Below, in pieces: positions 11,564 to 20,272 of a stretch of 20,272 bases of DNA (positions within the stretch are counted from its first letter, which is position 1; every line of letters starts with the position of its first letter). Position numbers and translations under genes: made by a program. Below the pieces are notes generated by a model. That model was not told the origin of the DNA. It did no database searches and saw only the letters and a program-made list of their open reading frames with translations. Origin of the DNA: a virus; the IMG/VR virus record IMGVR_UViG_3300025428_000024, positions 1 through 20,272 of that record, one strand, 5' to 3'.

Positions 11564-12133
11564 ATGGAGAAGCGGGGCTTAAAAAAGACAAAAAGTGGTG
11601 TGTTTATACTTCCTATATTAATGTATCAAAACATTATTAAGAAGTCACCATATTATATAGGTACTTATATACTCAATACACATCAACCTAGAATATGTGT
11701 TGTATTTCAAGATATAACTATGGATGAAGATCCTACACAACTAGTTACTCTAATGGGTGTTCTAGTTGCAGATCCTTTATACATTAATCAAGATGTACTA
11801 GATGGTGAAGTAATAGTTGAGTTTAGATTTCCTAGTAAGTTTAAAAAAGATTTTGATCTTATACTAGAAGGTAGGTACAGTGAGTTATCAAGAGAATACA
11901 AAGATATATTAATGATTGATCATGTTGAAGAGAGTTTACAAGGCTCTGCTAGATCTATGTTTGACATATTATATCCTACAAATGCTAAGCGTAAAGCTAT
12001 TGCTGAAGCTTTAGATGTAAGGTATGATAGTATTCCTAAAGAACTATTAGATATTCCTGTATTAGAGAATGAGATTTTTTGTAGATTAACAGAATATAAA
12101 GAAAAATATGAATCAAGAGAGTGTGTTAACTGA
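11564..12133 (+). CDS. Conserved-looking unknown protein between FEN and NrdJ
   Basis: ATG at 11564 is 16 nt after the previous stop and gives 189 residues; the in-frame TTG at 11519 would add 15 residues (RKVYSPRKEF) but sits within the exonuclease gene. The N-terminal half is beta-rich (SGVFILPIL, YYIGTYILNTHQPRICVVFQ, QLVTLMGVLVADPLYI, GEVIVEFRF). The C-terminal half is helical and acidic (FKKDFDLILEGRYSELSREYKDILMIDH, AKRKAIAEALDV). It overlaps the NrdJ start by 26 nt. No catalytic motif or family recognised; the placement suggests a replication or nucleotide-metabolism accessory. Confidence 0.65.
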   Translation: MEKRGLKKTKSGVFILPILMYQNIIKKSPYYIGTYILNTHQPRICVVFQDITMDEDPTQLVTLMGVLVADPLYINQDVLDGEVIVEFRFPSKFKKDFDLILEGRYSELSREYKDILMIDHVEESLQGSARSMFDILYPTNAKRKAIAEALDVRYDSIPKELLDIPVLENEIFCRLTEYKEKYESRECVN

Positions 12134-14954
12134 CTCTGAATTAAGTGCCAGTATTTTATCTGAAGTAACGATATTTAATAAATACGCGAAACATTTAGAA
12201 GATAAAGAAAGAAGGGAGACTTGGGATGAGATTTGTGATAGGTACGAAACTATGATGATAGAGAAGTACCCTAGTGAAGCACCTAATATCGTAGTAGCCT
12301 TAGACTATGTAAGAGCTAAGAAAGTATTACCTTCTATGAGAGCTATGCAATTTGCAGGTCCGGCTATAAGTAAGAATCATGCACGTATTTATAATTGTGC
12401 GTACTTACCTGTAGATGATTATAGAGCTTTTAGTGAAGGTATGTTCTTACTTTTAGGAGGTACAGGTTTAGGTTATTCCGTGCAAATGCATCATGTAGAT
12501 AAATTACCTGAAATAGTTAAACCTCTTAAAGAGAAGAAGTATCTTATAGGAGATAGTCTAGAAGGTTGGGCTGATGCAGTTAAAGTGCTGTTTAAAGCTT
12601 ATTTTGGATTAAGTAAATATAAACCAAGATTTGATTTTTCTGATATAAGACCAAAGGGAGCCAGGCTAGTTACCGCAGGAGGTAAAGCGCCTGGCCCTGG
12701 GCCATTAAAAGAATGTTTAGTTAAGATAGAGAATATCTTAGAATCTAAACAAACTGGAGATAAATTAAAACCTATAGAGTGCCATGATATTATTTGTCAT
12801 ATAGCTAACTCTGTATTGTCTGGAGGTATTAGAAGATCAGCTTGTATAGCTTTATTTTCTTTTGATGACCCAGAGATGACAGAATGTAAGTACGGTAACT
12901 GGTGGGAGACAAATGAACAAAGAGGTAGAAGTAATAACTCTGCTGTAATTGTAAGAAATAAAGTATCTAAAGAAGACTTTTTAAGTCTTTGGAAAAAGAT
13001 AGAGTTGTCTAATTCAGGAGAACCTGGTATTTATTTTACAGATGATAAAGATTGGGGAACTAACCCTTGTTGTTTTACAGGTAATACATCACTTTTAACT
13101 GAATACGGTAAATTAAATTTTTCTGAAATAGTAGAAGAATTTGGTGGAGAGTTAAATGCCTATAATTATAAAGGTGAATTAGTACCTTGTAAAGTTTGGT
13201 ATACAGGTGTTAAAAAAGTAATTACTCCAATACTATCTAACTATGGAGAGCGTTTTACTTGTACACCAGATCATGTGTTTATGTTAACTGATGGTACTAA
13301 ATGTGAGGCTAAAGACCTTGTGGGTAAAAGAATAATGCCTTTTGTGCAATTTAATAAAACTGTTAGTGAGTATACTAAGTATGGATTCATACAAGGTAAT
13401 ATCTCTTTAGGTGGGTTAGCTTCTGATACTCATAAAGGACTTGAAATTTATTTTGGAGAAAAAGATTTAGATGTAGCTATACTGTTTGGGTATGAAACTA
13501 CAGGTAAACAATATGTTACTGGTTATAATGAAATACTAGATTCTTTAGGATTTTCATCTGAACCATTACCTACTAGAGAATTGCCTGCTAGCTTTAGTAA
13601 GTTTAGTAGAGAAGAAATAAACCACTTTTTACAAGGTTTATATTCAGCTAATGGCTCTATAGTAAAAGGTCATAGAATAGCATTTAAAACTACTAGTAAA
13701 GTACTTGTACATCAACTAAGAAGTGTACTAAGTGATTTAAATATATATACTTACATAACTATAAATAAAGAGAAAGATGTTCAATTTAAGAATGGCCTTT
13801 ATACTTGTAAAGAGTCGTATGATTTAAATATAAGTAAATATAGTAGTCTGTTAATTTTTGCAGAGTGTATTAACTTTATACATCAGTATAAACAAGATGC
13901 ATTGTATGCATTAATAAAATCTAAAGCGCCTAAAGTATTAAGCATTTCAGAAGATATACATGAAACAGACGTATATGATTTTAGTTTAAATGATGATACA
14001 CATTGGGGAGTTGTAGCAGGTCAGTTTATTGCACATAACTGTGAAGTAGCTTTAAGGCCTAATCAATTCTGTAATCTAACTGAAGTAAATGTATCTAATA
14101 TAAAAGATGAGCAAGATCTTCATACAAGAGTATCTGTTGCAGCTTATTTAGGCACCTTACAAGCAGGTTTTACAGACTTTCATTACCTCAGACCTGTATG
14201 GAGAACTACTACAGAGAAAGAAGCTCTAATAGGCGTGGGAATGACTGGTATAGCTTCTGGTGAAGTGTTAAAGTATAATCTTAAGAATACAGCTGAAGTA
14301 GCTAAAACTATAAATAAAACAACAGCTGAAGATATTGGTATAAACCAAGCCGCTAGAACTACTGTAATAAAGCCATCTGGAACGACTAGTTGTGTATTAG
14401 GAACATCATCTGGAATACATGCTTGGCATAATGATTACTATATTAGGCGTATTAGGATTATGAAGAATGATCCATTATATACTTACCTAGTAATTAATCA
14501 TCCTGAGTTAATAGAAGATGATCAATTAAGAAGCCATGATACAGCAGTAATATCTATTCCACAAAAAGCTCCGCAAGGAGCTATTGTAAGAACTGAATCT
14601 ACATTTGATCTATTAGAACGTGTAAAGAAGTTTAACTTAGAGTGGGTTAGATCTGGTCATAGGAAAGGTGCAAATACAAATAATGTAAGCGCTACTATAT
14701 CAGTTAAACCTACTGAATGGCCTTCTGTTGGTGAGTGGATGTGGAATAATAAACATACTTTTAATGGATTAAGTGTATTACCGTATGATAATGGTTCATA
14801 TATACAAGCGCCATTTGAAGATTGTACTGAAGAGAAATATAAAGAATTAATGAAAACCCTAACAAGTGTAGATTTGAGTAAAGTTATTGAGTTATCTGAT
14901 AGCACAGAATTTACTCAAGAAGCAGCTTGTGCAGGTGGAAAATGCGAAGTATAA
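12108..14954 (+). CDS. nrdJ: Class II (B12-dependent) ribonucleoside-triphosphate reductase containing an intein
   Basis: 948 residues as translated, about 625 after removal of a 323-residue intein. RNR motifs: LPSMRAMQFAGP, IYNCAYLP (redox Cys), GGTGLGYSVQ, SGGIRRSA, NPC-CEVAL (radical Cys321 and Glu646, split by the intein), QFCNLTEVN, PSGTTSCVLGTSSGIHAWH, and the C-terminal redox pair AACAGGKCEV. No NrdB radical subunit is adjacent. The C-terminal Cys pair and the SGGIRRSA type agree with the monomeric adenosylcobalamin enzyme that reduces NTPs to dNTPs. No N-terminal ATP-cone is visible. It would enlarge dNTP pools for phage replication and needs host B12. Its stop overlaps the next ATG as TAATG. 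Confidence 0.85.
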   Translation: MNQESVLTDSELSASILSEVTIFNKYAKHLEDKERRETWDEICDRYETMMIEKYPSEAPNIVVALDYVRAKKVLPSMRAMQFAGPAISKNHARIYNCAYLPVDDYRAFSEGMFLLLGGTGLGYSVQMHHVDKLPEIVKPLKEKKYLIGDSLEGWADAVKVLFKAYFGLSKYKPRFDFSDIRPKGARLVTAGGKAPGPGPLKECLVKIENILESKQTGDKLKPIECHDIICHIANSVLSGGIRRSACIALFSFDDPEMTECKYGNWWETNEQRGRSNNSAVIVRNKVSKEDFLSLWKKIELSNSGEPGIYFTDDKDWGTNPCCFTGNTSLLTEYGKLNFSEIVEEFGGELNAYNYKGELVPCKVWYTGVKKVITPILSNYGERFTCTPDHVFMLTDGTKCEAKDLVGKRIMPFVQFNKTVSEYTKYGFIQGNISLGGLASDTHKGLEIYFGEKDLDVAILFGYETTGKQYVTGYNEILDSLGFSSEPLPTRELPASFSKFSREEINHFLQGLYSANGSIVKGHRIAFKTTSKVLVHQLRSVLSDLNIYTYITINKEKDVQFKNGLYTCKESYDLNISKYSSLLIFAECINFIHQYKQDALYALIKSKAPKVLSISEDIHETDVYDFSLNDDTHWGVVAGQFIAHNCEVALRPNQFCNLTEVNVSNIKDEQDLHTRVSVAAYLGTLQAGFTDFHYLRPVWRTTTEKEALIGVGMTGIASGEVLKYNLKNTAEVAKTINKTTAEDIGINQAARTTVIKPSGTTSCVLGTSSGIHAWHNDYYIRRIRIMKNDPLYTYLVINHPELIEDDQLRSHDTAVISIPQKAPQGAIVRTESTFDLLERVKKFNLEWVRSGHRKGANTNNVSATISVKPTEWPSVGEWMWNNKHTFNGLSVLPYDNGSYIQAPFEDCTEEKYKELMKTLTSVDLSKVIELSDSTEFTQEAACAGGKCEV
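13071..14039 (+). other. Intein with DOD (LAGLIDADG-type) endonuclease domain, 323 aa
   Basis: In-frame insertion in NrdJ, residues 322-644. It begins with Cys1 (CFTGNTSLLTEYGK, block A). Block B is FTCTPDHVFM with His68 of the intein. Block F is TDVYDFSLNDDTHWG and block G is VAGQFIAHN, ending His-Asn before Cys+1 of the extein. These are all the residues needed for protein splicing. Between blocks B and F is an endonuclease-like insert: GFIQGNISLGG (105-115) in the place of the first LAGLIDADG, LPASFSKFS, then FLQGLYSANGSI (186-197) in the place of the second. Both have Asn (110 and 194) where the catalytic Asp is expected. Splicing would rejoin NPC to CEVAL, restoring the reductase active site. 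Confidence 0.88.
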
Positions 14955-15382
14955 TGCCAGAATATAAATTTCATTATAAACCTGAAACAATAGCTAATGA
15001 TTTTTTAACTTCACCATTTGAAAGAATTGTTGGGCAAAGTTGGGGGCATAAAGTATCTCCTATAAAAGAACAAGGTCTTAAAAAGTTTGATCAAGGTAAG
15101 CCTAAATTCACTTCTATACCTCAAAAGGCTTTATTAGAAGTTGCTAAAGTGTTTACACATGGTGCAGAAAAGTATGGAATGTTTAACTATAGCTTAGGTA
15201 CAGATAATACTAGACTAGTTGATGCATTATTAAGGCACACTAATCAGTATTTAACTGGAGAAGATATAGATGAATCAGGAGTACATCATTTGGCCTGCGT
15301 AGCAGCTAATGCTTTAATGGCTTTAGATGCACATTTAACAGGTAAAGAAAGAGACACTCGTAATAGTGTTTATAAATCATAA
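14954..15382 (+). CDS. dATP/dGTP pyrophosphohydrolase-like protein (DUF5664, MazG-related)
   Basis: 142 residues from ATG 14954, which overlaps the NrdJ stop as TAATG; an upstream in-frame TTG would only add NrdJ-overlapping residues. The family signature is clear: KKFDQGKPKFTSIPQKALLEVAKVFTHGAEKYG is followed by NYSLG, RLVDALLRHTNQYLTGEDIDESGVHHLACVAANALMALDAHL. The Glu/His/Asp helices (VAKVFTHGAEKYG, EDIDESGVHH) fit the all-alpha NTP pyrophosphohydrolase fold. Such enzymes hydrolyse dATP and dGTP to monophosphates; some phages use a relative in the route to 2-aminoadenine DNA. Pairing with NrdJ suggests dNTP pool shaping. No PurZ-like gene is in the window. Quoted signature stretches are fragments of one region. 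Confidence 0.75.
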   Translation: MPEYKFHYKPETIANDFLTSPFERIVGQSWGHKVSPIKEQGLKKFDQGKPKFTSIPQKALLEVAKVFTHGAEKYGMFNYSLGTDNTRLVDALLRHTNQYLTGEDIDESGVHHLACVAANALMALDAHLTGKERDTRNSVYKS

Positions 15383-17435: not shown

Positions 17436-17474
17436 CAAAAAACCCCTAGATTTTATGTCTAGGGGTTCTTTTTT
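17436..17474. terminator. Bidirectional intrinsic terminator between converging genes
   Basis: AACCCCTAGA (17441-17450) pairs perfectly with TCTAGGGGTT (17458-17467) around TTTTATG. T-run on the plus side (17469-17474) and A-run on the other side (17437-17442, T-run for the minus strand) make it work both ways. It separates the plus-strand block from the minus-strand gene, and its T-run reaches into that gene's stop codon. Confidence 0.92.
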
Positions 17475-20272
17475 ACCTGAATTCTTCCATTAGTTGATCA
17501 TTGAGTATTCTATGGAACTGATCTATAAATGCTAAACCAGGAGTTAATCTAAGTGCAGCAGATTCTATCTTATATCTACCCTTCCTACTACCTGATTTAA
17601 ACTTAGCATTATCTCCGTAAGCTGTTAGTAAGTAACCAAAACCTTGCTTCATTGTATTTAGAGTAGTTACAGATGGTGCAGCTTTACCGGCCATATCTAT
17701 TGCAGATTGTGGGTTATAGAAGAATATAGCATCACCTGCAGCTCTATCTAACAAAGTCATAGCTAACTTAACTTGCCACATCTTCTTACGCTTCTTATCA
17801 TCGTAACTAGAACCATGTTTTAAAACCTGCATAATACCGAATAGAGCTCCTATAATAAGACCTTCTGCGATATTCTTACGCATATTGTACTTATCTATAT
17901 TACTTAAAGAATCCCAATTACCTGTAGCTATAGCTTTAATACCTTCGCCTAAAGATCTATACCTACCTTTCATAGTTTCACCTAAACGCACATCTTCATG
18001 CTCTTTAAGCATTCTAGACTCTACAGCTGTAGAAATCCACTTCTTAAATTGAGAAGCTAGCCTAAATAATACGCTCTGATACGCTATTGCAGCTTCTTTA
18101 GAAGTATATCTACCGTGTATAGTATAGTTAAGCTTTTGAATCTTATTGGTTAATTGAGACTTTTCTTTCTCTGTTAAGTTATTGTATTTATCTGTAAGTT
18201 CACCACTCTTAGTAAGCATACCTTCTTTAATAAGTACAGCTAACATAGTGCTAGACTGTAGGTATTTTTCACCTAACTTTTGTGGTAAATATAAGAATTC
18301 TTGTAGCTTATCAAAATCTAACTTTTTAGGATTGCCTGATACATGTTCTACCAAATGGTAGTCTTCAAGCTCTTGCAGTACGTTAAGTTCTTCTAAAAGT
18401 TTGTTTAATGTAGATTCTTTATCTGCAGTTTGCCTAAAGAATATATTTCTAGATGCACGTAAACCTTCATAGTTCATAAATTTACCGCCTACAGCCTCTA
18501 TAAAGTTACCCATTTGTCCAAACACTACGTTATTTATAGCACCTATTGGACTAAAGCCTATACGAAGTAATGAATTGTACTTTAAAAAACCATCTAATAA
18601 GTCTGAAGTATATACTACTCTTTTACCTACTAAGTTACCATTATCGTCTACTACATCAGTTTTAAACGGTAATTCAAACTTACCCTCTTTCTTCTTTAAA
18701 TCACCAAATATTTGCATTCTGATATAACCATCTACTATCTTATGTAGATTAGAGTCTTCATAACTAACAGGAGCTTTATTAGGTGTATCATTCTTGTAAT
18801 ATTGTCTATTTACTATATGACCATCTTTACCTACAGCCTTCTTCATACACTCTTCTATCATTCGTACTTCAGGTAATAATTCAACCATTTCATGGTGATT
18901 ATTTATGAATTGTCCGAATTGTAGTAAGCTAGAACTTAAATCTCTAGATTTCTCACTTTCATGCAGTGGTGTTAAGAACTCTAAAGGGAACATATCTTTA
19001 CCAGCTTCTGTAGATAATACACCATTAGAATTACGTTCTACTTGTACTAGCTTGTTAAATGCTATACGCCCTTTAGCTTTAACATTTGCTATAAAATGCC
19101 CACCCATTTGTTGAGGTGATAAAACTTGGAGTTTCTCCATCTCATCTATGTAGAAGTTATAGAACCTAGCTAATTCAGGTGTAGATTGTATCTTAATATA
19201 GTTAGCATTATCTGTACCATCATTATTAAACATAGAAACTATCTCGGTAGTGCGACCATTTGAGCTTATAAACACATCAAACATATGTTCAGGTTTCACC
19301 CCATTTTTTTTAGCCCAATCTCCTAGTAACTTAACCTCTTCTTTTATACGTTCTGCAAGTTGCTTACTAGCTATATCTGCTTTGTTTTGGCGCTCTTTAA
19401 TCAATAATCCAATAGTTCTAGCATAGTAATTCGCAGAGTCAGCTAAAGCACCTAGGTAAGTAGTTGCTACACCTTTATCTCTACTTTGAGCATCTATATC
19501 ATCTTGAGTTACTTGCTTAGGACTATTCTCTTGTACTATATCTAATACTTTCTTTTGAATCAGCGGAAATACTTCATTATAAGCATTGGCAGCTTCTTGT
19601 GCTAAAGAACTGAATTCTTTTAAAGCATTTAATGCATCTATAATATACTTAGCATTTGCTGTGGTTATTTCTCCACCATTCTTAAAGTCTTCAGTAAGAC
19701 CTTTTATCTCATTAATAGTCTCTAAACCTAACTCATGGTAATCATTAGCTTCTCCTGAAGCTCTAGCTACACCAAACTTATGCTCTAACTCTTCTAGTTT
19801 TGCAACTGCCTTAGGGAATTCAGGATCTCCAGAATCCATAGCTTGTAACTTCTTCTTAAGAGAGTTTATTCTACGAATGAATAATCCTGATTGTTTAGCA
19901 AATGGATCTGCAGGTAGAGAAGTTCTTTCATCTACTGCTTCTTCTTTTTTAAGACTTTCTAGGTCTAACCAAGTTTTATCATTAATTAATTCTTGTAAGG
20001 CATCTACATATGTATAGCCTTTACCAGTATCATTCGCGTAGTATAAAGTCTTATTATCTAATCTACCTTTAGCTATTTGATTTAAAATCCAGTTTCTTTG
20101 TGCAGGTCTTACATTTTCATGGTCTTCACCTTTTAACCAAGCTTTATAATCGTTAGCAGCTTTCTCTGCAGATTCTACTGATACATAACCTTTAATACCG
20201 CTAGCTGTAAATGGATTATCAAATTGTTTATAACCTGCATCTGGTACACGTTGTACAACTACACCATGATCT
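17473..20272 (-). CDS. Giant virion-associated protein, C-terminal part (start outside window)
   Basis: One frame is open on the minus strand from the window edge to TAA at 17473-17475, 932 residues visible; an internal Met at 19839 is not a likely start because coding sequence (DPFAKQSGLFIRRINSLKK and further) continues upstream of it. The protein is highly charged and helical, with long coiled-coil-like parts (residues beyond the internal Met: LEELEHKFGVARASGEA, LKEFSSLAQEAANAY). Near the end are a hydrophobic segment (IAEGLIIGALFGIMQVL) and a Gly/Ala-rich amphipathic stretch. crAss-like phages encode very large virion proteins in the late block, thought to be ejected with the DNA. That fits size, strand and place, but no catalytic motif is seen in this part. 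Confidence 0.65.
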   Translation of the reverse strand, partial: DHGVVVQRVPDAGYKQFDNPFTASGIKGYVSVESAEKAANDYKAWLKGEDHENVRPAQRNWILNQIAKGRLDNKTLYYANDTGKGYTYVDALQELINDKTWLDLESLKKEEAVDERTSLPADPFAKQSGLFIRRINSLKKKLQAMDSGDPEFPKAVAKLEELEHKFGVARASGEANDYHELGLETINEIKGLTEDFKNGGEITTANAKYIIDALNALKEFSSLAQEAANAYNEVFPLIQKKVLDIVQENSPKQVTQDDIDAQSRDKGVATTYLGALADSANYYARTIGLLIKERQNKADIASKQLAERIKEEVKLLGDWAKKNGVKPEHMFDVFISSNGRTTEIVSMFNNDGTDNANYIKIQSTPELARFYNFYIDEMEKLQVLSPQQMGGHFIANVKAKGRIAFNKLVQVERNSNGVLSTEAGKDMFPLEFLTPLHESEKSRDLSSSLLQFGQFINNHHEMVELLPEVRMIEECMKKAVGKDGHIVNRQYYKNDTPNKAPVSYEDSNLHKIVDGYIRMQIFGDLKKKEGKFELPFKTDVVDDNGNLVGKRVVYTSDLLDGFLKYNSLLRIGFSPIGAINNVVFGQMGNFIEAVGGKFMNYEGLRASRNIFFRQTADKESTLNKLLEELNVLQELEDYHLVEHVSGNPKKLDFDKLQEFLYLPQKLGEKYLQSSTMLAVLIKEGMLTKSGELTDKYNNLTEKEKSQLTNKIQKLNYTIHGRYTSKEAAIAYQSVLFRLASQFKKWISTAVESRMLKEHEDVRLGETMKGRYRSLGEGIKAIATGNWDSLSNIDKYNMRKNIAEGLIIGALFGIMQVLKHGSSYDDKKRKKMWQVKLAMTLLDRAAGDAIFFYNPQSAIDMAGKAAPSVTTLNTMKQGFGYLLTAYGDNAKFKSGSRKGRYKIESAALRLTPGLAFIDQFHRILNDQLMEEFR

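Follow-up and report, generated by a model that had tools for sequence, protein, structure and literature searches.

The reductase gene and its setting

The window analyzed here is the whole of a 20,272-base stretch of DNA from an IMG/VR virus record. It carries a replication and nucleotide-metabolism module encoding a DnaB-like helicase, a Sak4-like protein, a primase, a 5'-3' exonuclease, a reductase, and a dATP/dGTP pyrophosphohydrolase. A megablast comparison of the whole window with phages returned no match. On the minus strand, opposite to the replication genes, a large protein of at least 932 aa (17473-20271) runs off the window edge, and it has no match in Pfam or PHROG.

The reductase open reading frame (12108-14954, plus strand) is a single intact frame of 948 codons encoding 948 aa, and its sequence identifies it as a probable phage class II ribonucleotide reductase (RNR) of the RTPR type with a class 1 intein inside. 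It matches phrog_367 over residues 4-948 (E = 4e-121, 406 bits) and 1l1l with an E value of 1.5e-31; the unspliced protein scores 239.8 bits with TIGR02505, for which the curated cut-off is 340. The N-extein (321 residues, 12108-13070), delimited with phrog_367 and the 1l1l alignment, ends in WGTNPC. The C-extein (304 residues, 14040-14951) opens with CEVALRPNQFCNL directly after the intein end FIAHN, contains the C-terminal CAGGKC pair, and is followed by the stop codon at 14952-14954. After splicing, the N-x-Cys-x-Glu active-site loop would read NPCCE. Among 14 aligned relatives, Cys97 and Cys655, which we take from RTPR to be the redox cysteine pair, are invariant, and Cys941 and Cys946, presumably the C-terminal cysteine pair, are nearly so. 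The neighboring dATP/dGTP pyrophosphohydrolase-like gene (14927-15382, plus strand; Pfam dGTP_diPhyd_N, E = 4e-27; phrog_801) would begin before the reductase gene ends, provided that the first start codon of its own ORF is used.

Anatomy of the intein

Profiles, homologues, and fold together delimit an intein of 323 residues (969 nt) at 13071-14039, running in frame from Cys1 to the terminal His-Asn and leaving a predicted spliced product of 625 aa. A preliminary description of this DNA had placed the insert at 13060-14045, a range that brackets these boundaries, and had given the same sizes, 625 and 323 residues, for the two products. The family alignment defines block A (CFTGNTSLL, 13071-13097) and two LAGLIDADG motifs, YGFIQGNISLGG at 13380-13415 and FLQGLYSANGSI at 13626-13661. 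Block B (TPDH, 13263-13274) contributes Thr65 and His68, and blocks F and G (DVYDFSLNDDTHWGVVAGQFIAHN, 13968-14039) contribute Asp303, His322, and Asn323; all five residues are invariant in 22 relatives. Blocks A, B, F, and G are all complete, and the sequence features of a class 1 intein are present, namely Cys1 with block A, the Thr-x-x-His of block B, and a C-terminal His-Asn followed by Cys (AHN/C, where the slash marks the splice junction). The splicing residues named in the preliminary description (Cys1, block B His, His-Asn, and Cys+1) are thus in place, and self-excision is predicted.

In a search with the full protein, the TIGR01445 intein N-terminal region reaches 30.3 bits against a cut-off of 24.5, and Pfam LAGLIDADG_3 scores 35 bits (cut-off, 22.5); the Intein_splicing profile, at 26.2 bits, stays under its cut-off of 35.8. 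An AlphaFold model of the intein, built from the family alignment, has a pLDDT of 93, and a Foldseek search of the PDB with this model places the TliVMA, PI-PfuI, and PI-SceI inteins first, with E values down to 1e-13. The modeled intein has the HINT fold.

The insertion site

The precursor junctions read TNPC/CFTGNT...FIAHN/CEVALRP, with Cys321 (13068-13070, plus strand) as the -1 residue of the intein, an assignment based on the 1l1l alignment and intein-free homologues. Since phmmer aligns Glu646 of the precursor with a glutamate, residue 410 of 1l1l, Cys321 is the equivalent of Cys408 in the Lactobacillus leichmannii RTPR, which we take to be the thiyl-radical cysteine. The earlier suggestion that the intein lies directly after the predicted radical cysteine and parts it from its partner glutamate is borne out by this alignment. 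The +1 cysteine (14040-14042, plus strand) is Cys645 in the precursor and would be Cys322 once spliced; it is a native residue of the NPCCE loop, present in 80/80 intein-free homologues.

An uninterrupted NPC-CE occurs in three isolated phages (Mel-JY01, PD0307, and VPs20) and in all 80 of the nearest IMG/VR reductases, which were found with the C-extein alone, so that the search selected neither for nor against an intein. These proteins align across the junction, as the preliminary description had anticipated for intein-free homologues; the empty site is therefore exactly NPC/CE, and the +1 cysteine belongs to the host protein. We rejected a boundary one residue earlier (NP/CCFTG), as its product, NPCE, would be one residue shorter than all homologues. 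In an AlphaFold model of the precursor, pLDDT falls under 50 at both junctions (residues 317-321 and 644-648); this low confidence fits a disturbed loop and is no test of it.

State of the endonuclease and homing in relatives

The first LAGLIDADG motif reads GNI in the window, whereas nearly all relatives, L094 among them, have GDG; the second reads ANG both in the window and in nearly all relatives. Acidic residues in both motifs were thus not found in the window (GNI, ANG). Read from the first motif, the endonuclease has probably decayed and is no longer a working nuclease.

Relatives of this intein bear the marks of mobility. In the pair L224/L233, the exteins have diverged to a dS of ~0.34 and the inteins differ at 1 base in 960; the stretch of identity flanking the insert spans about -58 to +123 nt, as in a co-conversion tract. 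Similarly, the exteins of L011/L128 have a dS of 0.43-0.59 versus 0.08 for their inteins. Such near-identical inteins in diverged exteins read as footprints of recent homing, and because the inteins of both pairs are far closer than their exteins, the family was mobile in the recent past. The contig with L128, which was binned into a Sphingomonadaceae MAG, is possibly of phage origin. Separately, L104 and L120 (both NP/C-A-E) have near-identical exteins, one with an intein of 324 residues and the other with a mini-intein of 126 residues; their N- and C-terminal splicing parts are closely similar, as would result from loss of the endonuclease or its replacement in situ.

Comparison with known reductase inteins

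This kind of insertion is already known, and the window is a further example. The natural split intein NrdJ-1, an ultrafast intein in wide use that comes from a marine metagenome (PMC13123727; PDB 8ubs), lies in the same type of phage class II reductase, at the same NPC/Cys1 point, and uses class 1 chemistry. Unlike the window intein, it is split between two genes, lacks a LAGLIDADG domain, and has Ser at +1, and the two are related at the fold level only (Foldseek E value, 5.8e-4). Its native exteins are NPC and SEI; the natural locus in IMG/VR, L297, reads GTNPC/CLVG and HN/SEIVL, with both halves of the split reductase on the plus strand of one viral contig (1990-3315 and 4059-5141), ~740 bases apart.

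The closest annotated relatives are the inteins of Nodularia phages (kac68v161, kac65v162, and 2AV2; annotated "intein-containing RnR"), which belong to the same family, with ~38% identity over the full length, and also interrupt a class II NPCxE. They differ in lying one codon upstream (NP/C-G-E), which makes the radical cysteine the +1 residue, and in having an intact GDG in the first motif. The closest relatives overall (50-55% identity) are unannotated viral contigs. The RNR inteins of Thermus phages G20c and TSP4 likewise interrupt the NPCxE of a monomeric class II reductase; they differ in occupying the upstream register (NP/C-A-E) and are distant (~24% identity for G20c). The G20c reductase had been noted as containing a likely intein (PMC6459318), and published reviews deal with phage reductase inteins and, more generally, with inteins that interrupt catalytic sites (PMC3653736, PMC5874633).

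The best sequence match in the PDB is PI-PfuI of Pyrococcus furiosus (1dq3; E = 2.6e-8), which we take to be a reductase intein. It likewise combines a HINT domain with an embedded LAGLIDADG domain, differing in its larger size (454 aa) and in having acidic residues in both motifs.

Two insertion registers at the radical cysteine

Inteins at NPCxE occupy two registers, one codon apart. In the upstream register, NP/C-x-E, the radical cysteine doubles as the +1 residue and Pro stands at -1; the 34 loci have Gly (17), Ala (12), Val (2), Phe (1), His (1), or Leu (1) at x. The downstream register, NPC/x-E, comprises 20 loci with Cys (12) or Ser (8) at x. Neither NP/CCE nor NP/CSE, nor any Cys, Ser, or Thr at x, was found among the 34 upstream loci. 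These counts are of distinct loci, some of them near-identical; L255 and L104, one and the same contig, enter as a single locus. For five apparent upstream loci the C junction had not been parsed, and manual inspection showed that four end in Gln/C-[G/V/L]-E, and one is truncated. The junction of the window recurs in the relatives L094-L097, L100, L101, and L128.

The register has changed repeatedly. We place at least three changes on the intein tree and at least four on the extein tree (starred branches), or at least three to five overall, and x changes each time. Examples are L012 within the NPC/CE clade, L108 within the NPC/SE clade, and L210 beside L116. All four independent pairs agree in register and x, which are too few for significance (sign test, p = 0.125). 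The downstream register also spans distinct intein families: the LAGLIDADG family, HNH-type and related mini-inteins (L211, L213, L218, and, standing apart from these, L210), and NrdJ-1 as a split intein (L297).

In class I phage reductases the motif is NLCxE, which puts Leu at -1, and the inteins stay upstream even where x is Ser or Thr; the comparison covers only four such loci, L271 with Ser and those of S-CBWM1, PAU, and SH-Ab 15599 with Thr. We therefore discarded the general rule that an intein follows the radical cysteine whenever the next residue is a nucleophile, which these four loci break. When 292 genomes from a single phylum were scanned for NPCC[F/L]xG, five matches turned up in four genomes, none of which resembles this type of intein start. 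In an incomplete coverage of the literature, we found no earlier description of the two-register pattern.

Two other observations emerged from the survey. Four loci (L227, L232, L242, and L258) carry a distinct RNR intein family with Gln instead of Asn before Cys+1; a Gln-ending RNR intein has been reported for Chilo iridescent virus (PMC4031507). In addition, the class I reductase NrdA of Vibrio phage SUMAE (L281, 740-4183) has an apparent second intein elsewhere (KSCCLHPDMKVEIMT...VLTHNSQGG) besides the one at the radical cysteine.

What sets the register

Pro at -1 has been described as incompatible with splicing (Ye et al.), and the simplest reading of the pattern is that the intein would avoid a -1 Pro wherever the host residue that follows the radical cysteine is a nucleophile. 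More broadly, avoidance of -1 Pro may determine which positions in the reductase active site are open to inteins: distinct families would independently take the register after the radical cysteine where the host has Cys or Ser, lineages would shift by exactly one codon with the spliced NPCxE always kept, and the many inteins confined to the upstream register would have evolved tolerance of -1 Pro. We hold this broader account tentatively, at slightly less than an even chance. The class I loci are what avoidance of proline would predict, since an intein with Leu at -1 has no proline to avoid and could stay upstream with Ser or Thr at x. Proline is no absolute barrier, because all 34 upstream inteins live with it. 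Moreover, the splicing chemistry itself requires Cys, Ser, or Thr at x in the downstream register, which makes one half of the correlation inevitable; the half that carries information, that Cys and Ser exteins are never found upstream, rests on few independent events.

Alternatively, the register may be fixed by the DNA cut site of the homing endonuclease rather than by splicing chemistry, with register and neighboring residue co-converted. Both registers can be written as a single DNA insertion point right after the radical cysteine codon, and homing with co-conversion tracts of about -58 to +123 nt is seen in relatives (L224/L233). Yet the same choice of register is made in families without this LAGLIDADG endonuclease, whether HNH-type, mini-, or split (L210, L211, L213, L218, and L297), and nested switches such as that of L012 inside the NPC/CE clade involve a locally derived, not an imported, intein. 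Since several intein families use the downstream register, we favor a constraint at the protein level over the cut site of one endonuclease and regard the latter as rather unlikely to be what fixes the register.

A probable self-excising intein in the active-site loop

We conclude that the phage class II reductase of the window is very likely interrupted by a class 1 intein that was acquired by homing, is kept without a working endonuclease, and excises itself to give an active enzyme, in the register that avoids -1 Pro. Under this proposal, the intein was probably acquired by homing and probably persists without endonuclease activity. The active-site loop of the precursor would be cut between the radical cysteine and the glutamate two residues on. 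Excision would proceed through an acyl shift at Cys1, transesterification to Cys+1, and cyclization of the terminal Asn, restoring an intact NPCCE loop and thus an active enzyme. A register without -1 Pro would be possible because the second cysteine of this reductase lineage can serve as the +1 nucleophile.

A decayed, inactive reductase whose insert no longer splices would share the altered endonuclease motif, and the window itself has no close relative with which to measure selection. It would hardly be expected to retain a single intact frame of 948 codons, all of the splicing residues, and the catalytic residues of the reductase in its exteins, and we consider decay very improbable. That the unspliced protein is inactive, as the preliminary description stated, is to be expected from the position of the insert, as for any active-site intein. 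Its further statement that dNTP supply depends on splicing goes too far; only the activity of the phage enzyme would.

The same description proposed that splicing might act as a redox- or time-sensitive switch, in which oxidation would couple Cys-1, Cys1, or Cys+1, leaving the reductase inactive until conditions become reducing, and splicing would time dNTP synthesis. Three cysteines do lie at the two splice junctions, and in other inteins splicing is blocked by disulfides that join cysteines of the intein to each other or to those of the N-extein (PMC5874633; compare the "redox trap" of PDB 3nzm). However, the host reductase itself supplies Cys-1 and Cys+1, as shown by the 80/80 intein-free homologues that read NPCCE, and among the 20 loci of the downstream register, where +1 is Ser in eight, no pair of junction cysteines was found to be peculiar to the intein and conserved along with it. 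In vitro, NrdJ-1 takes only seconds (half-life, ~26 s) to splice at its native NPC/Cys1 junction (PMC13123727). Finally, an intein at this site occurs in 0/80 of the nearest reductases, which gives no hint of a conserved regulatory role. The switch thus has no specific support, and we judge it very unlikely.

As a single case the window is ordinary; the comparison to which it led has the greater use. The more than 50 inteins, distributed over two registers around a single catalytic cysteine, amount to a natural experiment in which the part played by the -1 residue and the shifts between registers can be tested directly. Its upstream members are natural inteins that apparently cope with a -1 Pro, a residue described as incompatible with splicing at that position.
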